From Desulfonatronum lacustre DSM 10312 (GTDB taxonomy: Bacteria > Desulfobacterota > Desulfovibrionia > Desulfovibrionales > Desulfonatronaceae): DNA of 64,000 nt. The notes below the pieces were generated by a model. That model was not told the DNA's origin and searched no databases. It was given only the letters and a program-made list of their open reading frames with translations. A program made the position numbers and the translations under genes. Within the stretch, counting starts at the first letter, position 1. The number at the start of each line of letters is the position of its first letter. Below, piece by piece: positions 717-21,039 of the stretch. The stretch covers positions 3,585,921-3,649,920 of the forward strand of contig NZ_KI912608.1 in NCBI RefSeq assembly GCF_000519265.1, in the 5' to 3' direction.

Positions 717-1604
717 TCATCGGGGTGCCGCCCCTTTTCGATTGGTGAGGTACACGCCCAAGCCGACCATGGCCGCTCCCAGAATCAGGGTCAGGCTGAT
801 GGTTTCACCCAGGATCAGGAATCCGGAGGCAATGGCCCAGACGGGCACGAAGTTGATGAATACCGCGGCTCTGGACGGGCCGATGGTTTTGACGCCCTGA
901 TAGAACCAGGTGAAGCCCAGCACCGTGCCGAACACTCCAAGATAAATCAGGGCCGCCCAGCGTGTCCAGGTCAGCGCCAAGACGTGGCCCGGCAAGCCCT
1001 CGGCCAAGCTAAAGGGCAGCAGTGCCGCGACGCCCACCAGGCAGGACCAAGTCACCGCCGCATGAGGTGAAAGATTCTTCATCATCACTTTGCCCACCAG
1101 GAGATAGATCACCCAACTGGCCACGCAACCGAAAATGGCCAAATCACCCCAAGACAAGGCTTGGTTAAAAATATCCTGGGGGCGGCCGCCGGTAATGGCC
1201 AGGATCGCCCCGCAGACCGAAAGTCCGATGCCGAGCAGTCTGCCCATGCCCAGCGGTTCCTTAAACAGTGGAGCGGCCAGCAGGGCGACGAAGATGGGAT
1301 TGGTAGCCACGATCACCGCCGCCCGTCCGGCTTCTACGGTGCGCAGGCCGGTGAAGAACAACACATTGTAGGCGAAGATGCCGCTCATGCCCAGGATGAA
1401 CACCGGAAGCAACTGACCCAGGCGAAGTCGCGGCAGGCCGCCTTCGTACACGCGCACCAGAATCACCAGGCTGACTGAGGCGATGGCGAAGCGTAAAAAC
1501 GCCGCGGAGAACGGCGGCAGGTCCGCGGCCACCACTCGCCCGGCCACGAAGGTGCCGCCCCAGAACATGGAGGTGCAGAGCAGCTTGAGGTAGGTTTTGA
1601 ACAC
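717..1604 (-). CDS. EamA/DMT-family transporter
   Basis: The product is a 295-residue inner-membrane protein with about ten hydrophobic helices arranged as two repeated EamA halves, the usual size and layout of drug/metabolite transporters. The N-terminus carries the family-typical start MFWGGTFVAGR, with PPFSAAFLRF after it. The second half has ITGGRP and later VFGTVLGFTWFYQGV. These proteins export metabolites or amino acids, and the substrate here is unknown. It follows dapA and its terminator on the same strand and precedes the MFS gene by 10 bp, so it and the MFS gene probably form a small transport operon. Confidence 0.9.
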   Translation of the reverse strand: MFKTYLKLLCTSMFWGGTFVAGRVVAADLPPFSAAFLRFAIASVSLVILVRVYEGGLPRLRLGQLLPVFILGMSGIFAYNVLFFTGLRTVEAGRAAVIVATNPIFVALLAAPLFKEPLGMGRLLGIGLSVCGAILAITGGRPQDIFNQALSWGDLAIFGCVASWVIYLLVGKVMMKNLSPHAAVTWSCLVGVAALLPFSLAEGLPGHVLALTWTRWAALIYLGVFGTVLGFTWFYQGVKTIGPSRAAVFINFVPVWAIASGFLILGETISLTLILGAAMVGLGVYLTNRKGAAPR

Positions 1605-1656
1605 GAGGGATCTTTCCCCGGGCTGTTGGAATGGTTGTCGTTTGCGGGACGCGGAA

Positions 1657-1687
1657 TAAAAAAGGGACGAGGGAGAACCCTCGTCCC
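1657..1687 (-). terminator. Rho-independent terminator after dapA
   Basis: A perfect 10-bp inverted repeat (gggacgaggg, AGAA loop, ccctcgtccc) lies at 1664-1687. On the minus strand it is followed by a run of Ts (1657-1663). It begins 29 bp past the dapA stop and separates dapA from the EamA gene. Confidence 0.9.
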
Positions 1688-1715
1688 TGGTCGCCGAACC
1701 GTGTGCGGCGGTGGA

Positions 1716-2606
1716 TTATTTTTTCAGGGTGATCAGGCCGGCTTGTCCGAGAATGTCCTTGAGTCGGGCCTCGTTGTTGGGCTGCATCCGAACCATGGGC
1801 AGACGGAACTCCGGCTTGACCTTGCCCATCAGGGACAAAGCGGTCTTGGCGGGTGCCGGGTTGGTCTCCAGGAACATGGCCCGGCACAGCGGGGCCAGTT
1901 CGTAATGCAGATCCTGGGCCTTGGCGGTGTTGCCTTCTCGATATTCGCGGCAGAGGGCGCTCATTTTGTTTGGAGCGATGTTGGAAACCACGGAGATGAC
2001 CCCCTTGCCGCCCAGAGCCAAGAGGGGCAGGACCGTGAAGTCGTCCCCGGAAAGAACGATGAAGTCCGATCCGCAGTATTCGAGCACTTCGGAAACCTGA
2101 GCCATGTTCCCGGTGGCCTCCTTGACGCCTTTGACCTCCGGAACTTCCCGGAACAGCCGGGAAAGGGTCTCCGGGAGCATGTTCACGCAGGTCCGGCCCG
2201 GAACGTTGTACAGGATCATGGGAATGGAAACTTCCTTGGCCACGGCCCTGAAGTGGGCCACCAGTCCTTCCTGGGTCGGCTTATTGTAGTAGGGCGTAAT
2301 CAGCAGAACGCCGTCGGCCTTGGCCTGTTTGGCCACTTTGGTCAGTTCGACGGCCTCCTTGGTGCTGTTGGAGCCCGAACCGGCCAGCACGGGGACCCGG
2401 CCTTTGACTTGATCGACGCAGATCTTGACAACCTGAGCGTGTTCGGCGTGGGACAGGGTCGCGGATTCGCCGGTGGTGCCGCAAGGAACCAACCCATTGA
2501 TTCCTTCCTCGATCTGCCACTCGATCAGACTTCTGTAGGCGTCTTCATCAATCACGCCGCTGTTGAACGGTGTGACCAGCGCGGTGAACGCTCCGTGAAA
2601 CGACAT
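1716..2606 (-). CDS. dapA: 4-hydroxy-tetrahydrodipicolinate synthase
   Basis: DapA condenses pyruvate with aspartate semialdehyde in the cytoplasm, the first committed step to diaminopimelate and lysine. The 296-residue protein has the family's standard length. It shows GTTGES at residues 43-48, the tyrosine of YNVPGRT (Tyr133) and the Schiff-base lysine in VKGVKEATGN (Lys162), matching the known catalytic set. dapF lies 70 bp upstream on the same strand, so the two diaminopimelate genes are probably co-transcribed. A strong terminator follows. Confidence 0.97.
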   Translation of the reverse strand: MSFHGAFTALVTPFNSGVIDEDAYRSLIEWQIEEGINGLVPCGTTGESATLSHAEHAQVVKICVDQVKGRVPVLAGSGSNSTKEAVELTKVAKQAKADGVLLITPYYNKPTQEGLVAHFRAVAKEVSIPMILYNVPGRTCVNMLPETLSRLFREVPEVKGVKEATGNMAQVSEVLEYCGSDFIVLSGDDFTVLPLLALGGKGVISVVSNIAPNKMSALCREYREGNTAKAQDLHYELAPLCRAMFLETNPAPAKTALSLMGKVKPEFRLPMVRMQPNNEARLKDILGQAGLITLKK

Positions 2607-2676
2607 ATTTCCTCCTTGTGCTGTACGTGCGTGCCGGTGCCGGGCGAATGAATCCGGCCATGGACCGTGTCGCGGA

Positions 2677-3594
2677 TTATGGCTCGGTCCGATTCAGACC
2701 CAGGGATCGGAGATTGAGATTGGCCGTAAAGACCAGGACGGCCTTTCCGGTCAGAAAAACGGCGTCTTGGTGAATGGTGATGCCGAGCAGTTCGCCTCCG
2801 GATGTGCGGATGTTCACCTCCGGTCCGGTTCGGTTCAAGGCGTGGGTTATCAGGGCCGAGGCCGCCGCTCCGGTGCCGCAGGCGTAGGTTTCCCCCTCAA
2901 CGCCGCGTTCGTATGTGCGCAACAACAGATTCTCCCGGTCCTGGACCTGGACGAAATTGACGTTGGTGCCGCTGGGGGCGAACCGGGGATGCTCGCGGAA
3001 CCGGCGTCCGAGGTCTTGGACGTCCAGGCCGGCCACATCCGGAGAGAAGACGACCAGATGCGGAACTCCGGTGTTCACGAAGTGAGCATCCCAGGAGGGC
3101 GTTGATTCGAGTTGTTCGGAAGCCTTCGGAAGAGACGATTCCAGAGTCAGAGTCAGATTCAGACCCAGGCGCAGATCGTGGTGCGGGGTCAGCTGGACCT
3201 TGACCAAGTCCTGGTCGGGCAAGACCTCGGCTTTGATGGGACCGGCGTCCGTGCCCAGAACATGCGTCTTTCCGGCCAGCCCCAATTCATGGGCCAGTCG
3301 GGCGGCGCACCGGGAACCGTTGCCGCACATTTCGGCCCGGGAGCCGTCGGCATTGTAGAAGTGCCAGATATAGTCCGCCTCCACGCCCGGAGGCGTCGTG
3401 TCCAGCAGGATCAGCCCATCGGCTCCCACGCCGAAGGCCTTGCGGCAGACGGCCCTGGCCCAGTCGGGCATTTCATCTTGGGCAAGTTGCAAGGCCCGGT
3501 TGTCCAGGACGACGAAGTCGTTGCCGCTGCCCTGCATCTTGCAGCATTCCACCCAGGGACCGAACGCGTCGCTGGTTGATATCCGTTGGTTCAT
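2677..3594 (-). CDS. dapF: Diaminopimelate epimerase
   Basis: DapF interconverts LL- and meso-diaminopimelate using two cysteines as acid and base. Both are visible: Cys90 in the motif MCGNGSRC and Cys239 in YACGTGAAAS. At 305 residues the protein is slightly longer than typical (about 275), mostly from a 15-residue N-terminal lead and an insert near residues 140-170. The KMQGSGNDFVVLDNR segment near the N-terminus is also family-typical. It heads the dapF-dapA pair supplying meso-DAP for peptidoglycan and lysine. Confidence 0.97.
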   Translation of the reverse strand: MNQRISTSDAFGPWVECCKMQGSGNDFVVLDNRALQLAQDEMPDWARAVCRKAFGVGADGLILLDTTPPGVEADYIWHFYNADGSRAEMCGNGSRCAARLAHELGLAGKTHVLGTDAGPIKAEVLPDQDLVKVQLTPHHDLRLGLNLTLTLESSLPKASEQLESTPSWDAHFVNTGVPHLVVFSPDVAGLDVQDLGRRFREHPRFAPSGTNVNFVQVQDRENLLLRTYERGVEGETYACGTGAAASALITHALNRTGPEVNIRTSGGELLGITIHQDAVFLTGKAVLVFTANLNLRSLGLNRTEP

Positions 3595-3680
3595 TGCGCT
3601 TCCTCAGATCGTGGGCGATGCACGCGCCAATGTTGTGTGACGATACCTGCTCAAAAACTCCGAGGTGACCGTCCTCTCAT

Positions 3681-3789
3681 GCTCAGCGAAGCGGTGCTCG
3701 TGCTCGTGTTTGGAATCGAGCTGGAAGGTTCGGGAAAACGACCGATTACGAGTACGAGCGCCGCCGTGAGCGGCTGAGCACGAGCACGA
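3681..3789. repeat. 6-nt periodic extragenic palindrome
   Basis: Between dapF and the IHF gene, the left arm (3681-3708) carries gtgctcgtgctcgtg and the right arm (3751-3789) carries gagcacgagcacga. The arms are mutually inverted and built on a GAGCAC/GTGCTC hexamer, with related gagtacgag units between them. The rest of 3595-3825 holds no supported gene. It looks like an interspersed repeat or an mRNA hairpin; its function is unknown. Confidence 0.55.
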
Positions 3790-3825
3790 TTGGGCGTTGT
3801 TCCCTACGACGTTGCGCTTGCAGCG

Positions 3826-4107
3826 CTACGCGTCTTCGTTCAGGTGGTCCTTGAGCTCCTTGCCCGGTCGGAAGAAGGGCAGTCGTTTGGGCTGGACTTC
3901 CACGGACTGACCGGTTTTGGGGTTGCGGCCCTTGTAGCCCTGGTAGTCCTTGACCTTGAAGCTGCCGAATCCCCTGATCTCCACGCGGTCGCCCTGGATC
4001 ATGGCATCCTTGATGGACTGAAAAAAGGTGTTCACCACAGTGGTTGCGTAATCCATCGGGATGTCGTTCTTTTCGGCAAGATTGCGGATTAATTCGCTTT
4101 TGTTCAT
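3826..4107 (-). CDS. IHF/HU-family DNA-binding protein (IHF-beta-like)
   Basis: This 93-residue nucleoid protein belongs to the bacterial DNA-bending family. The body reads VEIRGFGSFKVKDYQGYKGRN, followed by PKTGQSVEV and PFFRPGKELKDHLN. The FRPGKEL ending resembles IHF subunits more than HU (usually FKAGK.L). I place the start at MNKSELI because GGAG lies nine bases upstream; two upstream in-frame ATGs (4113, 4122) would add three or five residues. It likely acts as a homodimer or IHF-type heterodimer in replication, recombination and transcription. It stands alone, with over 100 bp free upstream and 230 bp downstream. Confidence 0.92.
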   Translation of the reverse strand: MNKSELIRNLAEKNDIPMDYATTVVNTFFQSIKDAMIQGDRVEIRGFGSFKVKDYQGYKGRNPKTGQSVEVQPKRLPFFRPGKELKDHLNEDA

Positions 4108-4214
4108 GAGCATTTTCTCCAAATCTGTATGGCGGGCGATACGAAAAACACCACGGCAAGGGCCAATTCGCGACTACCTACACCGATACGTGAAAAAATT
4201 CTATAGGTTGAAGG

Positions 4215-5039
4215 TTAAAAATTTGCCAGGGCCGGTTTGTCGAGCAATCCCGGCATCAGGGCCGCGCGCAGGGATTGCAGCCGTTCGGCCAGGACCCGAA
4301 TGTCCTCGGCAGCCGGTGATTTGGGCGCGATGCGCATCAGGGCTTGCTGCTTGGCCACGGCTTTTCCCATGTTCGGATCACTCCGGACCATGCCCAGGTA
4401 GTGGGTTTTGAAGCCGAGGAATTTTTCCACGGCAGCGTCCAGGCGTCGATGGGTGGTTTGGGCCTCCTCCCGGTTCGCGACCTGGTTGACCAGGATCAGA
4501 AAGTCGTGAATGTCGGCTTTGGCTGAAAGCACTTTGATTACGGCGTAGGCGTCGGTCAGCGAGGTGGGCTCCGGAGTGAGCACGACGATCCGCTTGGCAG
4601 CGGCCCGTGCCATGGCCAGCAACGTGGGGTTCAGACCGGCGGCCATGTCCAGGATCAGAAAGGCGTAGTCGGATATGATCGGCTCCAGTTTTTTCAGCAA
4701 CAGGCCGCGCTGGTCCTCATCCATCTCCACCAGTTCGGGCACACCGCTGGCAGCCGGCAGCAGATCCAGGTTTGGGGCCACCGGCTGGACGAGTCGTTGT
4801 GCGGCGATGTCCCGGACCAGCAGGTCCTGGATGGTGGCTTCGCTGGAGATTCCCAACAGGATGTCCAGATTGGCCAGCCCGAGGTCGCAGTCCATCAGCA
4901 GGCAGCGCAGTCCGGATTCACTGAGGCAGAAGCCCAGGTTCGCGCTGAGGCTGGACTTGCCGACACCGCCCTTGCCGCTGAATACGGCGATGCTCAAGGT
5001 CCCATTGGGGTTGGTTTGCATTGGTTGGTGGGGGTTCAT
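4215..5039 (-). CDS. MinD/ParA-family ATPase, FlhG-like
   Basis: The 274-residue cytoplasmic P-loop ATPase has the deviant Walker A SGKGGVGKSS at residues 21-30, switch motif LLMDCDLGLANLDILLGI and LILDMAAGLNP. The phrase DLGLANLD is typical of FlhG/YlxH, the MinD relative that counts and places flagella. No flagellar biosynthesis gene is near, so the role stays tentative and another polar-positioning job is possible. The gene begins 5 bp after the diguanylate cyclase gene, which suggests co-transcription with prfB and the cyclase. Confidence 0.88.
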   Translation of the reverse strand: MNPHQPMQTNPNGTLSIAVFSGKGGVGKSSLSANLGFCLSESGLRCLLMDCDLGLANLDILLGISSEATIQDLLVRDIAAQRLVQPVAPNLDLLPAASGVPELVEMDEDQRGLLLKKLEPIISDYAFLILDMAAGLNPTLLAMARAAAKRIVVLTPEPTSLTDAYAVIKVLSAKADIHDFLILVNQVANREEAQTTHRRLDAAVEKFLGFKTHYLGMVRSDPNMGKAVAKQQALMRIAPKSPAAEDIRVLAERLQSLRAALMPGLLDKPALANF

Positions 5040-5044
5040 GGTGA

Positions 5045-5911
5045 TCAGGCGGACAATCCTTGGAAAAGAAAATTCTTCTCCGTGGCATCCACCAAGGTTT
5101 GGGAAGCCGAATCCGGAGCGATGTCCCGGAACGGGGCTTTTTCCAGACGATCCTTGCCGGCCCGCTTGGCTGAGTACAAGGCGTTGTCCGCCAGTTCGAG
5201 CAGTTCCACGGGCAACATGTTCCGGAACCCCTTGTAGCAGGCCAGTCCGGTGGAAATGGTCACCTGGGGGACGGTGGAAGGAGCGGGACAGTCGAAACGC
5301 AGCTTCCGTACGGCGTCCATGATTCGCTCCAGCAGGATCACCGCGCTGGTCTGGGTCGTGGCGGGCATCAGCAGGGCGAATTCCTCCCCACCCAGGCGTG
5401 CGGCCAGATCGGCCCTGCGGATGTTTTTGCGCAAAACCTCGGCCACGGTTCGCAGGACCAAGTCTCCGTGGACATGGCCGCAGTCGTCGTTGATTTGCTT
5501 GAAGTCGTCGATGTCCAGAATGGCCAGGCTCAAGGACAGTTTGGAGCGCCGGGTGCGTTCCATCTCCGTGTGCAGGGCCTGATCGAAGACGACTCGCCGG
5601 GCCAAATCGGTCAGATCGTCATGGCCGGCGGCGTGGGTCAGATCGTCGATTCGGGCCTGAAGGCGGCTCAGGGCCGGGTAGACATCTCCTTCCAGGGGCA
5701 GAAGCATCCAAGGGAAACCCTGAAGCACGGCCTGCACTTCGGCGGACCGTTGCGGAGAAAGGCCCCTGAGCAGACGAAACAAGACCGCGTCCGCACCGGG
5801 GTCTTCAGTAGGGTTGGTGGCGAGAGGCAGGGAGGCCAGTCGGCCCCGCAGGGTTTCCAACTCGGCTCGCAACTCCGAAGGCGCGGGAAGGCTAGGCGAC
5901 TTTCCGGACAT
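5045..5911 (-). CDS. Diguanylate cyclase (GGDEF)
   Basis: From the ATG at 5911 the product is 288 residues. The first 90 residues are an unassigned helical sensory or regulatory region, and the C-terminal half is a GGDEF domain. It has the signature GGEEF at 174-178, DIDDFKQIND at 133-142, and an RRAD inhibitory site (165-168) exactly five residues before the signature. It should therefore make cyclic di-GMP and be product-inhibited. No membrane segment is visible. The start lies inside the end of prfB (20-bp overlap), so translation is probably coupled. A PilZ-domain receptor gene lies about 4 kb upstream in the same run. Confidence 0.93.
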   Translation of the reverse strand: MSGKSPSLPAPSELRAELETLRGRLASLPLATNPTEDPGADAVLFRLLRGLSPQRSAEVQAVLQGFPWMLLPLEGDVYPALSRLQARIDDLTHAAGHDDLTDLARRVVFDQALHTEMERTRRSKLSLSLAILDIDDFKQINDDCGHVHGDLVLRTVAEVLRKNIRRADLAARLGGEEFALLMPATTQTSAVILLERIMDAVRKLRFDCPAPSTVPQVTISTGLACYKGFRNMLPVELLELADNALYSAKRAGKDRLEKAPFRDIAPDSASQTLVDATEKNFLFQGLSA

Positions 5912-7050
5912 GGGTCTCCAAAAGATGGTTCCGGATAAAGCCGTCGATGTCCCCGTCCAGCACGGCCTCGACGTTGCCCATCTCGAAATTCGTGCGATGG
6001 TCCTTGACCAGACGGTAGGGCTGGAGGGTGTAGGTCCGGATCTGGCTGCCCCAGGCAATGGCGTCCTTGGTGGCGTATTGGGCCTGTTTTTCGTCTTCGC
6101 GCTTGCGCAGTTCCAGTTCGTAGAGGCGGGCCTTGAGCATCTTCATGGCCGCGTCCTTGTTGCGGTGCTGGGACTTTTCATTTTGGCACTGGGTCACGAT
6201 GTTCGTGGGCAGGTGGGTGATTCGGATCGCGGAACTGGTCTTGTTCACGTGCTGTCCCCCGGGACCGCTGGCCCGGAAGACGTCGATGCGCAGATCTTCC
6301 TCGTTGATTTCGATCTCGATCTCCTGACCCACGTCCGGGTAGATGTCCACCGAGGCGAAGGAGGTGTGCCGCCTGCCGGAGGAGTCGAAGGGCGAAATGC
6401 GGATCAAGCGATGAATACCTTTTTCACTTTTCAGCAGGCCGTAGGCGTACGAGCCTTCGATCTGGAGCACCACGCTCTTCACTCCGGCCTCGTCCCCGGG
6501 CAGATAGTCCAAAATCTGGACCTTGAATTGATGGCGCTCGGCCCAGCGCCGATACATCCGCAGGAGCATTTCGGCCCAGTCCTGGGCTTCCGTGCCCCCG
6601 GCACCGGGATGGATTTCCAGGATAACCGGGTGCTGGTCCTCCGGTGCGCTGAGCAAGGTATGCAGTTCCGCCTGTTCCAGTTTGTCGGACAAAACGGCCA
6701 TGTGCCGCTGAACCTCTTCCAGGATTTCCCGCTCGGGTTCGTCTTCGGCCATGGCCAGCCACTCGCCCAAATCCTGCTTGGCCTTGCGCAGAGCGTACCA
6801 TTCCTGGAGCGCGGTACTGAGTCGGGTCTTTTCCTGAAGCAGAGGCGTCATGCTCCGAGGGTCGTTCCAAGCCTCGGGATGGGAGATGGCCTTGTCGATT
6901 TCCACCAGGCGGGCTTCGTAGGCATCCCGGTCAAAGGCTCCTCCAGAAGCTGTCGAATTGGACTTCCAGGTTCGCACTTTCCGTTTTTAATTCGGAAAAC
7001 TGCAAGAGTTTCTTGCCGTTCTCGGCGCGTTGGGCTTCAGCCGTGTTCAT
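5892..7050 (-). CDS. prfB: Peptide chain release factor 2, programmed +1 frameshift
   Basis: RF2 releases peptides at UGA and UAA codons. The gene is read in two frames. Codons 1-39 run from the ATG at 7050 (GGAG nine bases upstream) to an in-frame TGA at 6931-6933. After a +1 slip at CTT, translation resumes at GAC (6932) and runs to the TAG at 5892-5894, giving 385 residues. The RF2 codon-recognition tripeptide SPF (about 219-221) and the catalytic GGQ (about 264-266) are present. A TTG at 7005 would give 370 residues, nearer the family norm. In-frame-only annotation would mis-start this gene at 6977. Confidence 0.95.
6930..6945 (-). promoter_or_regulatory. prfB autoregulatory +1 frameshift site
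   Basis: On the minus strand the site reads TGG AGG AGC CTT TGA C. An internal Shine-Dalgarno-like GGAGG lies three bases before the slippery CTT, followed by the UGA stop and a C. This matches the classic prfB layout (SD, short spacer, CTT TGA C), in which low RF2 lets the ribosome slip +1 and make more RF2. Confidence 0.92.
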
Positions 7051-7104
7051 GAAACAAGACTCCATGGTTCGATGCGGTGCTTGACGATAGTCAAAAAAAA
7101 TATC

Positions 7105-8643
7105 TTATTCCATCCCGAAAGACGCTCGCCGTCGACGCAGCCACCAGACCGATCCGAGCAACACGCCGACGGTCGCGGGCAAAAGCGCCTGGAGGATCGT
7201 GTAGTGCCGGTGATAAAACGTGCGGTCTTCGAGGAGGAGAACTTCCGGATAGGAGAGGGTCAAACGATGGAACAATCCTCCGGCTTCAAGTCGTCGGCCT
7301 CGTGGGTCGATGATCGCCGTGACGCCCGTATTGGTGGAACGAACGAGAAATCGGCCCTGCTCCACGGACCTGAGGACGGCCTGGTTCAAGTGTTGTCGCG
7401 GAGCCGAGGAGCGGCCGAACCAGGCATCGTTGCTAATGTTCACCAGGAGGTTCGCTCCGGCGCGAACCCGTTCCCGGCTCAATCCGGGAAAGATCGCTTC
7501 GTAGCAAATGAGCATGCCCAGGGCAAGCCGGTCCCAATGGAGCGGAGCGGGGTCGTTGCCGGCCACGAAGTCGCCCTCGCTCTGGGCCAGACGACGGATG
7601 AAGGGCAGGAGGTGGCCCAAGGGAACATACTCGCCGAAGGGGACAAGGTGTTCCTTGTCGTAGACGTCGAGGGTTTCTCCCCTCGGGCCGAGCAAAAAGG
7701 CCGAGTTGCCGTATCCGATTTCTCCGGTGGACAGGTTTACTTCGTAGCGCGGAGCGCCGGTAAGCAGGGCGAAACGTTCCTGGGAGCGGACGAAATCCCG
7801 CACCTGCCTGGACAAGGCGTTTTCCTCCTGAAGGTAAAAGGGCATGGCCGTTTCCGGCCAAATCACCAATTCCGGCGCGGAGGAGAGTTCCTTGGCGGTC
7901 AGGTCGAGGTAAGTACGAATCGTGGCTTCCTGGTATTCCGGCTCCCATTTCACGGTTTGGTCGATATTGCCCTGGACCAGCGTGACCCGGACCGGTGCTC
8001 CTTCCGGGAGAGGCTTGGTCAGCATCACAGCGCCGAAGCCGATCAAGGCCAGGGGCGTAGCAATGCCCAACAACAGGCTGAACGTGCTCCCACGAGCCAG
8101 GATCAGCCAAGCCGCGGCGGCCACGAACACCGCAGACAACCAGTATTCGCCCACCAAGGCCAAGCCCTGGATGGCCGCGGGCCAGGGCGCCAGGGCCGCC
8201 GGGAGCGTCAGCCAGGAGAAGCCGGTGAACAGCGTTCCCTGGGCCATTTCCAATCCTCCCCAGAGCAGACCGGCACCCAAGCCAAGAGGAACAGGGGAAA
8301 GGACGGGACGCGCCCAATGGATCAGGGCGGAAAACGCTCCGCCGTACAGGCCCAGGTACATGCCCAGCAGGATCGGGCAGGGCAGGGCCAGAATCCAGGG
8401 CAGGCCGCCGTGGACGTGGACCGGGATGAAGACCCAGTACAGGCAGGCGGCGTAGGCCAAGGCGGCGCAGATCCAGCCGGAGCGGAAGGCCGCGCCTGGA
8501 GAGGAGGCTTTCAGGGCGATCCAAAACAACGCGGCCGGAAAAAGAACCGCCGCCCCAGGCACATGGGAGATCGGGTTGGCATGGCCGAACCAGGCCCCGG
8601 GCAGGGCGACCAAAAGCGCGGCGGGCAGCGTGGCCGAGATCAT
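7105..8643 (-). CDS. lnt: Apolipoprotein N-acyltransferase
   Basis: Lnt adds the third acyl chain to lipoproteins in the inner membrane. The first 210 of 512 residues are hydrophobic with several membrane helices, followed by a periplasmic nitrilase-type domain. The catalytic Glu-Lys-Cys triad is visible as Glu264 (WPETAMPF), Lys330 (YDKEHLVPFGEY) and Cys380 (MLICYEAIF). The start ATG overlaps the corC stop in an ATGA, so the two are translationally coupled. The corC-lnt pairing is widespread in proteobacteria. Several lipoproteins in this window would be its substrates. Confidence 0.96.
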   Translation of the reverse strand: MISATLPAALLVALPGAWFGHANPISHVPGAAVLFPAALFWIALKASSPGAAFRSGWICAALAYAACLYWVFIPVHVHGGLPWILALPCPILLGMYLGLYGGAFSALIHWARPVLSPVPLGLGAGLLWGGLEMAQGTLFTGFSWLTLPAALAPWPAAIQGLALVGEYWLSAVFVAAAAWLILARGSTFSLLLGIATPLALIGFGAVMLTKPLPEGAPVRVTLVQGNIDQTVKWEPEYQEATIRTYLDLTAKELSSAPELVIWPETAMPFYLQEENALSRQVRDFVRSQERFALLTGAPRYEVNLSTGEIGYGNSAFLLGPRGETLDVYDKEHLVPFGEYVPLGHLLPFIRRLAQSEGDFVAGNDPAPLHWDRLALGMLICYEAIFPGLSRERVRAGANLLVNISNDAWFGRSSAPRQHLNQAVLRSVEQGRFLVRSTNTGVTAIIDPRGRRLEAGGLFHRLTLSYPEVLLLEDRTFYHRHYTILQALLPATVGVLLGSVWWLRRRRASFGME

Positions 8644-9482
8644 GCTTCCGGACCGGATTCCGTTTCCAGGGGTTGGACGTCGATCCAGCGGACCTTTTTC
8701 TGATCCGCGTCCTTGATCCGGAAGCGGAAGTCCTGAATGTCGAAAACATCGCCCTTGCGTGGGACCCGTCCGGCCAGTTGAGACAGGTAGCCCCCGATGG
8801 TGTCCACCTGGTCGCTATCCAGATCGACCACAAGGTTTTCGCGCAATTCCGTCAGTTCGGTCCTGCCGGAGATTAGGTAGCCTCCATCTCCCTGGACCTG
8901 GATGTCGTCGGGACGCGGGGCGTCGTATTCGTCCTCAATGTCCCCGACGATCTCCTCCAGGACGTCCTCGAAGGTGAGCATGCCCGAGGTCCCGCCGTAC
9001 TCGTCCAGGGCGATTGCCAGATGATTTTTGCGCGACTGAAACTCCTGGAGCATTTCCATGACGTTCTTGGTTTCCGGAATGAACAGGGGCTCGCGCAGGA
9101 TTTCCTCCAGTCTGTTGCGAGGGGATGGCGTGGGATGGAGCACGAACTGCAAGAGGTCCTTGGCGTGCACGATGCCCACGATGTTGTCCTTGTTGTCCTT
9201 GTAGATCGGAATCCGGGTGTGACCGTGGGCGATGATCAACTCGGCCACGTCCTCGATCCGATCCTCGATCTCGGCGCAGACGATATCCGTGCGCGGAATC
9301 ATGATTTCATGGACTTGCTTGCGTCCCAGGCGAAGCACTTTGAGGACGATGGAGGCCTCCTCCTTGCGGATCTCGCCTTCGTCCCTGGCCGCCAGAATGA
9401 TGGCTTCAATGCTGGATGCGTCGTCCTTGCGGAAAATCCGTTTGAACATGCTCCAGAATTTGCCTTCTATGCCCTCTTCCAA
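8640..9482 (-). CDS. CorC/HlyC-type CBS-domain protein
   Basis: The 280-residue soluble protein has two CBS domains (about residues 65-185), with family motifs IMIPRTDIV and EYGGTSGMLTFEDVLEEIVGDI, and a C-terminal CorC_HlyC domain (about 195-270) with TIGGYLSQLAGRVP. Members are linked to magnesium/cobalt efflux and membrane integrity. The start is a TTG at 9482, supported by GGGAGG five bases upstream; the first ATG would remove 11 residues. It lies between the PilZ gene and lnt on the same strand. The N-terminal DUF21 membrane domain of larger relatives is absent, as in E. coli CorC. Confidence 0.92.
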   Translation of the reverse strand: MEEGIEGKFWSMFKRIFRKDDASSIEAIILAARDEGEIRKEEASIVLKVLRLGRKQVHEIMIPRTDIVCAEIEDRIEDVAELIIAHGHTRIPIYKDNKDNIVGIVHAKDLLQFVLHPTPSPRNRLEEILREPLFIPETKNVMEMLQEFQSRKNHLAIALDEYGGTSGMLTFEDVLEEIVGDIEDEYDAPRPDDIQVQGDGGYLISGRTELTELRENLVVDLDSDQVDTIGGYLSQLAGRVPRKGDVFDIQDFRFRIKDADQKKVRWIDVQPLETESGPEA

Positions 9483-16934: not shown

Positions 16935-17189
16935 CTAACGTCCGCGAGCAGCGCGTTTGGAGGCCTTCAAGGGGTTGACCTTGATTTTACCCTGCTTGTC
17001 CACGCTGGCCTTGACATGGGTAGCGAAGTTGCAGACCCCCAGAGCCCACTTGGCCTCGGGTTCGGCGTAGCTGCTGCAATGGCGCAATCCATCGTCTTCC
17101 TTGATCCGCTCACAGCCCTCGCACTTCTCCACCACGGGCTGAAATACAAAGGCGCCGGCGGCGCCGTTTTTCGTCTTTTCGACTTGCAT
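16935..17189 (-). CDS. PxxKW-family cysteine-rich protein
   Basis: The 84-residue protein has the family-naming motif PEAKW and four to five cysteines (KCEGCERI, HCSSY, GVCNF) that may bind a metal. Function is not established. It is common in Desulfobacterota. AGGAG seven bases upstream fixes the start at 17189; a longer open frame to 17384 crosses a repeat and is not protein-like. The basic Lys/Arg tail (KASKRAARGR) is notable. It lies 30 bp upstream of the M20 peptidase gene. Confidence 0.88.
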   Translation of the reverse strand: MQVEKTKNGAAGAFVFQPVVEKCEGCERIKEDDGLRHCSSYAEPEAKWALGVCNFATHVKASVDKQGKIKVNPLKASKRAARGR

Positions 17190-17496
17190 CGCAAAACTCC
17201 TGAAAAAGAAATTGGAAAAAGAGAGGTCTTTTATGGACAACCGCTTCGGTCTGTCAAGGCAGGACAATTTTGTTCTCGAACTACGGGGCGCTCTTGATCG
17301 GTATCGAAATCGAAATCGTGGTCGAAATCGATTTGGTAACATTCTGATTTCGATAGCGATTTCGATGGTTGCTGGCCCACCCATGGGGGTTCCTCTTGAA
17401 CATCCTGCAATCTACCACTCTGAAAGTATGGATATTTTCCAGAGAACAAAATGGCCCTGTCTGTCAAGGTGACGTTTTTCGCCCTTCCTCCTCTGC
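17190..17496. other. Non-coding gap with 6-nt periodic repeat
   Basis: This 307-bp stretch between the PxxKW gene and the HTH tail holds no supported gene. Its centre (17296-17368) is a repeat of CGAAAT and its complement: atcgaaatcgaaatcg on the left, gatttcgatagcgatttcg inverted on the right. It is similar in style to 3681-3789 and probably an extragenic palindromic element. Confidence 0.6.
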
Positions 17497-18035
17497 TCAG
17501 GATTTCGACTCCACCTGGTCATGCAGGCGCTGCAATGACGAAAGGCAGCGGTCTTGCAGGTTGAGTCGGCCGCGAGTGTTTTCCCAGCGGTAGACGCTGG
17601 CCGGAGTCACGCCCAGCTTGGCGGCGAAATCCTGGACCGTAAGGCCGGACTTTTCGCGCAACCTGGATATGCTCGTGCCCTTGGGCACGAAGGGTTTGGG
17701 CTTGGGGGCGGCTTGCGGCGTGGCCCTGGTTTTGGCGGACTGGTCTTTGGTTGGCTTTGGAGCACGAGGTTTGCCAGGCTCGACGGCTGTTTTGGCTTTT
17801 GACGCGACAGGAGGTTTGGCGGTCTTCTTCGTCGGCGAGGCAACGGTTTTTGCGGATGCTTTGCTGCTCGGCGCTGTTTCGGCCTTGGCCTTGGTCCCGG
17901 CTGGCGTTGTTTTCGTCGTTGCTTTTCTCCGCGGACTCGCGGTGGTGGTTTTGGAGGCAGGCTCGGCAGGCGGGCCAGGATCCATTGCTTCGTCCAGTTC
18001 GATGCCGAAAATATCGCCCAGGGAATCTGCTTTAG
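17497..18035 (-). pseudogene. Orphan C-terminal part of a Lys/Ala-rich XRE-type HTH protein
   Basis: In a frame different from the SNF2 gene, this stretch encodes ADSLGDIFGIELDEAM, then about 90 residues rich in Ala, Lys, Pro and Thr (histone H1/AlgP-like), and a C-terminal helix-turn-helix. The helix-turn-helix includes LREKSGLTVQDFAAKLGV, then TPASVYRWE. The sequence looks genuinely protein-like, yet it has no upstream start of its own: the first ATG in frame is at 17985 and no Shine-Dalgarno is visible. It reads as the tail of a DNA-binding protein whose 5' end was lost when it was joined to the SNF2 gene. Confidence 0.6.
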
Positions 18036-20174
18036 GCGCATCAGGGTTTGCAGAACCAGCCCCCGGCGGGCCATGGCCTCGACCTCTTTCAGGGTCTTGG
18101 TCATGTGGTTCACCACCTGCTGGTAGAGTTTGACCTGGGTTTTGGTCAGCAGGCAGTAGCGCACGGTTTCGGTCTTGTCCGGGAGGTCGGCGATGATCCT
18201 GCGATCGGTTTTCAGCCGTCTCAGGATATACGGGCCGGCCAGGCGACGCAGGGGGCCGAAGGGGTCGTTCTCCCGGGCCTCCAGGGCCTTGACGAAATCC
18301 TTGAACCGCTTGGCGTTGCCCAGCAGGCCGGGGTTGAGAAAGTCGAACAGGCTCCAGAGTTCGCCCAGCCGGTTTTCCACGGGCGTGCCGGTCAGGGCCA
18401 CCCGCGCCTGGGCAGGGAGTTTTTTGGCCGCTCTGCTCTGGGCCGTGGAGGGGTTCTTGATGGCCTGGGCTTCGTCCAGGATCACCAGCCGCCAGGGCTG
18501 CCCGGCCAGCCAGGGCATTCGTCCGACCATGGAATAGGTGGTCACGACCAAGTCGATGCCCGAAAGAATCCGGGTGTGATCCCGGGCCAGGGCGTCCAGA
18601 TCCTTGCGCGGGGTTTCCGAGGGGTGCGCGAAAAGCAGACGCAGATTCGGGGCGAAATGCCGGGCCTCGGCCCGCCAGTTGCCCAGCAGCGAGGCTGGAA
18701 TGAGCAGCAGGGAAGGCCCGGCTCGCCCCCCGGCTTCCGCGGCTTCGGCCTTGATTCGGCTGAGCAGGCCGAGCACCTGGATGGTCTTGCCCAGGCCCAT
18801 GTCGTCGGCCAGGCAGGCCCCCAGACCCAGGCTGGTCAGGAGGTGCAGCCAGCCCACGCCGTCCTTCTGGTACGGCCGCAGGGTCGCACTCAGGCCGATG
18901 GCGGACTCGTCCACCCGCAACCGGGCCGGATCGCGCAGGGTGTCCAGAATTTCGCGCAAGGCCGTTCCGGCCTGGACATGGGCCCACTCCCGGATGGCCT
19001 CGTCCTGGTCGTCGTCGCGCAGATCCGCCGATGCCCCGGCCAGCAGGCGCATCCCGTTGATAAAGGATATCTGGCCTTCCTGGGAGGTCCGGGCCTCCCG
19101 CTCCAGCCGCTTCCAATGCTCCAGGGCTTCCTGCAGCCGTTCCCGGTCCACCTCCACCCACTGGCCCTTGAACAAAACCAGGCTCTCCGTGCCGGAGAGC
19201 AGCTCCTGCATATCCTCCCCGGTCAGCGGCGTATCCCCCAGGGCGACCTGCACCCGGAAATCCAGCATGGCCTCCGCGCCCAGGGACGTCTTACGCTGCT
19301 CGCCGATGACCACGCCCACCTGGGGCCTGGGACGCTTCCGCCACCAGTTGGGCAGGCGCACGGACAGGCCGCTGTCCTCCAGGGACGGAGCGGATCGGAG
19401 CATCTCGTAGGCCCGGGGGACGCTCCAGGCCATGGGCCGATAGACGTCCCCCTCGTCCACCAGAACCTTGACCCAATCCAGGCGGTTGGCCGCCTCATGG
19501 ACCGGGGTCAGCAGCTTGAGCAGGGCCGCCTTGTTGCCGGCTCCGGCGTAAAGTTCCAGGGCCTTGCGCAGCGGCAGGTGCCGGACCTGGCCCGAGGCAT
19601 CCATGCCGGTGCTGAAACTGGCCATGAAGGCAAAGGGGCGGTCCTCGTCGGTCTTGTTCTCAGCCAGATGAAAGGTGACCCGGCCGACCTGGTTCCAGCG
19701 CGGGGCGCGCTTGCGCAGAAATTCCGAGGGGCCGTTGTCCCGGGCCATGGTCTCCTGGGCCCAGGCGGACAGCTCGTCCCAGATTCCAGCCAGCAGATCA
19801 GAGGAAAGGTATTCCCCACCGACCATCGGCGGGGCGGAATCGGCCCAGGACTGAAAACGCTCCGGGGGCGGCGGCGGAAGCTGAATGGAAGGGGGGGGCG
19901 GCAAACGGTGCTCAAGTCCGCGTGGTCCCGTGGATTGGACATGTGCGGCGGCCTCTGGCGCGTGGCACAGCCTGGTCAGGTAATCCGCCGCTATCCTGGT
20001 CCAGAAGCTCATGGAAGGCGACGAGGCCAGATCGCCGCGAGCCGCGAGCAGAAACAGCCCTTCGCGCCAGTCGCGGGCAAAGGCTTCGGTCAGGGCCGTG
20101 GACGCGGGTGCGAGGTCCGTGCCCGGGGCGTGCAGACTCAGCCGACCGGTGGGCGTGAGACGGATTTCAGGCAT
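17607..20174 (-). CDS. SNF2-family ATPase, truncated (C-lobe missing)
   Basis: From ATG 20174 the frame gives an SNF2/Swi2-type ATPase: a long N-terminal region, then helicase lobe 1 with ADDMGLGKTIQVL (Walker A, about 455-463), LVVTTYSMV and DEAQAIKNP (about 566-572). GTPVENRLGELWSLFDFLNPGLLG follows. At about residue 715 (LMRLKQI, base about 18030) homology stops where CNHP and lobe 2 should begin. The remaining ~140 residues are out-of-frame reading of the HTH tail. No lobe 2 is found in any frame, so the protein should be unable to translocate. rsmA lies 25 bp upstream. It could be called a pseudogene. Confidence 0.75.
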   Translation of the reverse strand: MPEIRLTPTGRLSLHAPGTDLAPASTALTEAFARDWREGLFLLAARGDLASSPSMSFWTRIAADYLTRLCHAPEAAAHVQSTGPRGLEHRLPPPPSIQLPPPPPERFQSWADSAPPMVGGEYLSSDLLAGIWDELSAWAQETMARDNGPSEFLRKRAPRWNQVGRVTFHLAENKTDEDRPFAFMASFSTGMDASGQVRHLPLRKALELYAGAGNKAALLKLLTPVHEAANRLDWVKVLVDEGDVYRPMAWSVPRAYEMLRSAPSLEDSGLSVRLPNWWRKRPRPQVGVVIGEQRKTSLGAEAMLDFRVQVALGDTPLTGEDMQELLSGTESLVLFKGQWVEVDRERLQEALEHWKRLEREARTSQEGQISFINGMRLLAGASADLRDDDQDEAIREWAHVQAGTALREILDTLRDPARLRVDESAIGLSATLRPYQKDGVGWLHLLTSLGLGACLADDMGLGKTIQVLGLLSRIKAEAAEAGGRAGPSLLLIPASLLGNWRAEARHFAPNLRLLFAHPSETPRKDLDALARDHTRILSGIDLVVTTYSMVGRMPWLAGQPWRLVILDEAQAIKNPSTAQSRAAKKLPAQARVALTGTPVENRLGELWSLFDFLNPGLLGNAKRFKDFVKALEARENDPFGPLRRLAGPYILRRLKTDRRIIADLPDKTETVRYCLLTKTQVKLYQQVVNHMTKTLKEVEAMARRGLVLQTLMRLKQIPWAIFSASNWTKQWILARLPSLPPKPPPRVRGEKQRRKQRQPGPRPRPKQRRAAKHPQKPLPRRRRRPPNLLSRQKPKQPSSLANLVLQSQPKTSPPKPGPRRKPPPSPNPSCPRARAYPGCAKSPALRSRISPPSWA

Positions 20175-20199
20175 GTAAGGGAGTGTCGTCGTGGTTGCT

Positions 20200-21039
20200 T
20201 TACATCGATTCGTGGGCCCCGTTTGACAAAGGCGGGAAGACGAGGTTCGCCAAAAGTTGGAAGCGGTGGGGCGAGAGTTCTTCGGGGCGGCTTTCCGGGC
20301 GCAGGTCTTGGTCTTGGAACCATTGATCCAGGTGGTCGCCCCAGAGTGGGCGGAGGATGGTTTTGAGTTGTTTGCGGCGTTGCTGGAAGCACAGGGGCAG
20401 TAATCGGCGGAGCGGGCCGGAGTGTTGAAGGCGTTCTTCCGGTGCCAAGGTGGTGAGGCGGACCACGGCGGAGTCCACTTTGGGGCGGGGGTGGAAGACC
20501 TGGGGGCCAACGGTGAACAGGCCGCGAACCTGGACATGGCTCTGGACCCAGACGCTCAGGGCCCCGTAGTTTCGCGAGCCCGGCGCGGCGGCCAGCCTTT
20601 GGGCGACTTCCTTTTGAACCATGAATATTCCCCGTTCGAGGTGCGGGACGTCGGCGGCCAGATCCCAGATGATCGGCGAGGCCACGTTGTAGGGCAGGTT
20701 GCCGATGATCCGCCATGGGCCGTGGAGTTTGGTCCAGTTGAACCGCAGCGCGTCCATCACGACCACTGCAAGCGTCGGCCAGCGGTGTTTCAGCTCTCCG
20801 GCCAGGACATCGTCCTTTTCCAGGGCGTACAGCCGGCAACCGGACTCCAGGAGCCGTCCGGTCAGCGCACCGCGCCCCGGACCGATTTCCAGAACCGGGT
20901 CTTCGGATGAGGCCTTCAGGGCGTCCGCGATCTTATGGGCCGTGCCCTGGTCGGAGAGAAAATTCTGTCCCAGGCTGCGCTTGGGCCGGTGGGTGGTCCT
21001 CTGAGCGATTTGTCGCTCCGTCTTGGGCATGGCTGGCAT
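20200..21039 (-). CDS. rsmA: 16S rRNA (adenine1518/1519-N6) dimethyltransferase
   Basis: RsmA (KsgA) dimethylates two adjacent adenines in the 3' hairpin of 16S rRNA using SAM. The 279-residue protein has the opening SLGQNFLSDQ, SAM motif LEIGPGRGALT, and catalytic NLPYNVASP. The start ATG at 21039 touches the DUF2062 stop (TAATG); a second ATG at 21030 (MPKTERQ) is equally possible. It sits between DUF2062 and the SNF2 gene on the same strand. Confidence 0.96.
   Translation of the reverse strand: MPAMPKTERQIAQRTTHRPKRSLGQNFLSDQGTAHKIADALKASSEDPVLEIGPGRGALTGRLLESGCRLYALEKDDVLAGELKHRWPTLAVVVMDALRFNWTKLHGPWRIIGNLPYNVASPIIWDLAADVPHLERGIFMVQKEVAQRLAAAPGSRNYGALSVWVQSHVQVRGLFTVGPQVFHPRPKVDSAVVRLTTLAPEERLQHSGPLRRLLPLCFQQRRKQLKTILRPLWGDHLDQWFQDQDLRPESRPEELSPHRFQLLANLVFPPLSNGAHESM

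Follow-up and report, generated by a model that had tools for sequence, protein, structure and literature searches.

In the genome of Desulfonatronum lacustre DSM 10312 (G000) an SNF2-family helicase gene breaks off at the boundary between its two motor lobes and runs, out of frame, into the end of a gene for an HTH protein. This raises the question of how such a joint came about, and whether the locus is the remains of two known genes or something new. We analysed a window of 64,000 nucleotides around it (G000:C1:3585921-3649920), taken from a genome of 3,761,451 bases that is assembled as a single contig and is 99.69% complete. Relatives hold intact SNF2 and SWIM zinc-finger genes in order, which supports the reading that a deletion, seen in one assembly, very probably fused SNF2, at the boundary of lobes 1 and 2, to the SWIM gene. 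Because the pair is intact in relatives, this would be ordinary gene loss, not a new system.

The helicase stump and the SWIM remnant

The helicase part lies at positions 18025 to 20174 of the window on the minus strand. It begins with an ATG at 20174, shortly after a ksgA-like gene on the same strand (20200..21039), and comprises about 717 of roughly 912 codons, without stop or frameshift. The product carries DUF3670 (PF12419) and lobe 1 (PF00176), and is 78-80% identical to the intact genes of the congeners G003, G004 and G006. The Pfam SNF2-rel_dom profile (PF00176) matches it with an E value of 3.3e-54 over profile positions 1-267 of 290, where the match is cut at the joint. The helicase reading ...QTLMRLK ends at 18030 and is followed by Q (18027-29) and I (18024-26), after which the sequence is out of frame; a Pro/Arg/Lys-rich stretch of 138 codons follows (17607..18023, minus strand) up to a stop at 17607. 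The preliminary description had placed the end of the SNF2 sequence after LMRLKQI, where CNHP is due, and all 12 aligned intact homologues do read through this point as LKQ[IV]CNHP. It had also reported no lobe 2 in any frame. This agrees with our whole-genome profile search for Helicase_C (PF00271), which gave 12 matches in G000 and none inside the window; in a Pfam search the domain was found in an intact relative and was missing from the window protein. SF2 motors require both lobes, and without lobe 2 half of the ATP site is gone; the lost lobe also held what we take to be motif VI with its arginine finger. On established knowledge of SF2 enzymes the stump cannot act as a motor. Elsewhere G000 keeps an intact SNF2 paralogue, an open frame of 1,096 aa near C1:76501-77862.

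The second part, from 17497 to about 18024 on the minus strand, is read in the -1 frame with respect to SNF2 and is what remains of the 3' end of a gene for a SWIM zinc-finger protein. It consists of a Lys/Ala-rich linker and a C-terminal HTH (HTH_3, E value 1.4e-7), both typical of the SWIM subfamily, and ends at a stop at 17497. Its match in G006 is to residues 236-407 of a SWIM protein of 408 aa, with 54% identity. Since it aligns solely to the C-terminal part of that protein, the earlier view of it as an HTH half in another frame, without its own 5' end, was correct. Calling it unrelated to SNF2 was not: it forms the tail of the SWIM protein that usually follows the helicase, as in 64 of the 69 usable named loci listed below. 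Compared with a DUF3670-type bacterial SNF2 helicase (PF12419 + PF00176 + PF00271), the window shares the conserved DUF3670 and lobe 1 but lacks lobe 2 and is out of frame after LMRLKQI. Compared with the SWIM protein that stands beside the helicase, it shares the linker and HTH but lacks the start, the N-terminal region and, by alignment to relatives, the CxC...CxH motif (CSC...CKH); the relatives' proteins match PF04434 (SWIM), whereas the remnant has no such motif.

The intact pair in relatives

Four of the eight genomes of the genus examined carry an SNF2 gene of this kind (G000, G003, G004 and G006), and the other four contain only weaker SNF2 paralogues of 41-43% identity. In the genus the helicase is about 912 aa long and the SWIM proteins 388-434 aa. 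The congeners of G000 that have the pair show a three-gene layout, with a coiled-coil gene in the middle. In G006 (locus L034) the SNF2 gene (1375-4113), the coiled-coil gene (4220-5083) and the SWIM gene (5226-6452) lie on one strand and encode proteins of 912, 287 and 408 aa, the last combining a SWIM zinc finger with an HTH at its C-terminus. In G004 (L035, minus strand) the SNF2 gene is at 6380-9121, the coiled-coil gene ends at 5578 and the SWIM gene is at 4396-5562; taken from the first start codon the products are 913, 260 and 388 aa, the 260 being probably over-long at the start. G003 has the SNF2 and SWIM genes on two short contigs, both of which end inside the middle gene. We observed internal repeats in the middle gene, and the copies in G006 and in G004/G003 differ in length by repeat units. 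The G006 copy belongs to no Pfam or NCBIfam family.

Other members of the order lack the middle gene, and their SNF2 and SWIM genes stand side by side. We measured nine such pairs: in eight the matched ends are separated by -9 to 180 bp, and in G009 by 782 bp, with a second SWIM match inside that gap. With the lobe-1 stretch as query we obtained at least 80 named loci; the 69 with 1.8 kb or more of downstream DNA were usable, and 11 with less were dropped. Among the matches listed, lobe 2 directly follows the matched part in all 69 usable loci, and 64 of them have the SWIM N-terminal region on that strand, no more than 4 kb further downstream. The comparison that the preliminary description had proposed, with the same locus in relatives, therefore finds intact SNF2 and HTH (SWIM) genes in the same order and orientation. 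Nowhere among the 12 aligned homologues and the 69 listed loci is the truncated layout the normal state.

The nearest NCBIfam model for the intact relative is the SCO1167/SCO6262 family helicase, at 565 of the 1200 bits of the cut-off; by its listed entries, the literature on SCO6262/SCO1167 concerns Streptomyces regulation. We also considered a defence helicase (ZorD, DpdE, DrmD) and rejected it, as the PADLOC models match the intact relative chiefly over the shared motor (about residues 395-905, with one DpdE model from 275). Its NCBIfam scores were 283 against a cut-off of 1500 for ZorD and 34 against 500 for DpdE. Among the listed papers on SWIM and SNF2, mostly eukaryotic by title, we met no treatment of a bacterial SNF2-SWIM pair.

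The probable deletion, its joint and its age

The ancestral locus would have held an SNF2 gene with DUF3670, lobe 1 and lobe 2, followed by a SWIM gene, possibly with the coiled-coil gene between them. A single deletion probably joined SNF2 codon ~717 to the SWIM gene just before the conserved DSLxDIFGI segment. It would have removed lobe 2 with its motifs, the SNF2 stop, the intergenic DNA or the middle gene, and the CxC...CxH part of the SWIM gene. With the SWIM remnant left in the -1 frame, translation from the SNF2 start would end 138 codons on, and neither protein could be produced in its normal form. Measured from the two breakpoints, the deletion would span 2,462 bp by the G006 layout and 2,125 bp by the G004 layout. 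The compact layout gives about 1,276 bp with G041, 1,277 bp with G056 and 1,381 bp with G018, at slightly different endpoints; a fourth compact locus (L064) gave only one endpoint. The idea of a deletion put forward earlier is supported, but its size of several hundred bases was too small and becomes ~1.28-1.38 kb or 2.1-2.5 kb. The only further match to lobe 2 in G000 is a 40% paralogue at C1:76501-76974; the SWIM N-terminal region is found nowhere else in the genome, where a full SWIM protein finds the window tail alone, and the middle gene has no match in it. An inversion or translocation was rejected, since none of these three pieces is found elsewhere in G000.

A blastn comparison of the window with L034, together with a DNA alignment, puts the joint at 18025..18028 (minus strand), the SNF2 alignment to G006 ending at 18025 and the SWIM alignment at 18028. 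The two parental alignments overlap by 4 nt, AGAT, of which AGA is certain and T likely, as judged from relatives. At the joint the relatives' SWIM genes read GAAGACTCC(C/T)TGGC and the window reads GCAGATTCCCTGGG. The 9 nt proposed earlier as a microhomology, AAAGCAGAT, does sit at the joint (18025-18033); that length is not borne out, as the nine bases do not appear on each side in relatives, whose alignments leave ~4 shared bases. By hand calculation an overlap of at least 4 occurs in ~1.6% of random joints and one of at least 3 in ~5%, so microhomology is suggested, not proved, with breakpoints placed by relatives ~80% identical and the joint read from one assembly.

Short-homology deletions in bacteria arise by slippage or end joining. 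The locus resembles them in its clean joint and ~4 shared bases, with parents that are here reconstructed from relatives. G000 has two adjacent Ku genes (C1:1214406-1215690; L188, L189), and Ku was found in one of 14 control genomes. Non-homologous end joining is therefore probably available in G000, and one event through a ~4 nt microhomology joint could have been made by end joining with its own Ku proteins or by replication slippage.

The SNF2 stump keeps 180 of the 181 columns that are invariant among ten relatives, a single departure, and leave-one-out departures in the ten intact relatives range from 1 to 11; the comparison leaves out G003 and G004 as near-copies of G006 and has little power for a young event. 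No relaxed constraint is visible in the stump. The lack of decay in lobe 1 points to a probably young event, the other reading being that the test is too weak to show decay.

Could the joint be a product of the assembly? The preliminary description had raised this, and one assembly only shows the joint; the chromosome could hold an intact pair from which the assembly or the library lost 1.3-2.5 kb. This is a single-contig genome of near-full completeness, however, in which the joint region occurs once and the missing pieces occur nowhere else. Usual assemblers are not misled by an overlap of 4-9 nt, which is too short for that. The single contig and the clean short joint make an error less likely, and we regard an artefact as very unlikely. 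We find it very unlikely, too, that several successive events shaped the locus in place of one deletion, such as separate losses and truncations or an insertion that came and went. The different site of the cluster in G006 and G004, and the variable region in G002, where the SNF2 and SWIM genes are missing from the site, would fit such a history. Against it, the joint is clean and the parental alignments meet with their 4-nt overlap and no filler DNA.

It is also conceivable, at long odds, that the locus encodes a working protein, either lobe 1 alone with a new basic tail or, through -1 frameshifting, a fusion of SNF2 and HTH. Lobe 1 is undegraded, the frame stays open for 138 codons, and two X_XXY_YYZ heptamers lie shortly ahead of the HTH, CCCAAAC from 17700 and AAACCCT from 17697. 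Two more such heptamers occur in the SNF2 part, however, and those near the HTH may be fortuitous. Lobe 2 is kept in 12 of 12 aligned homologues and 69 of 69 listed loci, SF2 motors need both lobes, and a young event accounts for the lack of decay. A new protein of DUF3670 and an ATP-binding lobe 1 with a strongly basic 138-residue tail, or with the HTH reached by -1 slippage near 17700, is highly improbable. In that case the basic tail would come from reading the Lys/Ala-rich linker of the SWIM gene out of frame, and the protein would be a DNA-binding switch without motor activity.

The chromosomal site and the probable loss of the pair

The stretch 17260..20233 is missing from the syntenic site of the sister species G002, which has ~155 bp there instead. 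G002 is close to G000, with protein identities of 94% for fusA, 86% for ksgA and 94% for the M20 peptidase. The names ksgA, gidA, fusA and M20 peptidase are ones that we presume from the sequence. Gene order is kept on both sides in G002, including the ksgA-like flank, and no SNF2 or SWIM genes lie at the site; a small Cys-containing protein gene follows ksgA after ~220 bp. In the window this small gene lies downstream of the pair at 16935..17189 (minus strand), and it adjoins the M20-peptidase gene in all seven congeners. The SNF2-SWIM cluster is variable within the genus. In the interval from the SWIM remnant to the small gene, GAAATC/GATTTC words are repeated at 17300-17370, and a similar stretch lies upstream of the small gene in G003.

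Its absence from G002 means either that the cluster was added at this site in the G000 lineage or that it was fully lost in G002. In G006 and G004 it sits at another chromosomal place, by a flavin-reductase-like gene (named by inspection), so at least one further event belongs to its history. The SNF2 genes of G000 and G006 are 79-80% identical, like fusA (81%), which gives no sign of a transfer into the genus from elsewhere. G+C gives no signal of a foreign origin either, the stretch having 0.642 against 0.640 and 0.633 in the flanks. At gidA and M20, G003 (440 contigs, 4% contamination) shares 92-94% identity with G000, and its SNF2 gene is 95% identical to that of G006 (L182 = G003:C336, L037 = G003:C424). 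Genome mixing or exchange within the genus could explain this oddity.

The widespread and conserved pairing, in 64 of 69 listed loci, suggests from gene order that the helicase and the SWIM protein may work together, and the breaking of both genes at once fits such joint working. The deletion in G000 would be a clean, probably young example of the loss of an SNF2-SWIM pair, broken in one of the four carriers of the genus. It would be ordinary gene decay, notable mainly for breaking both members of a widespread pair at once.
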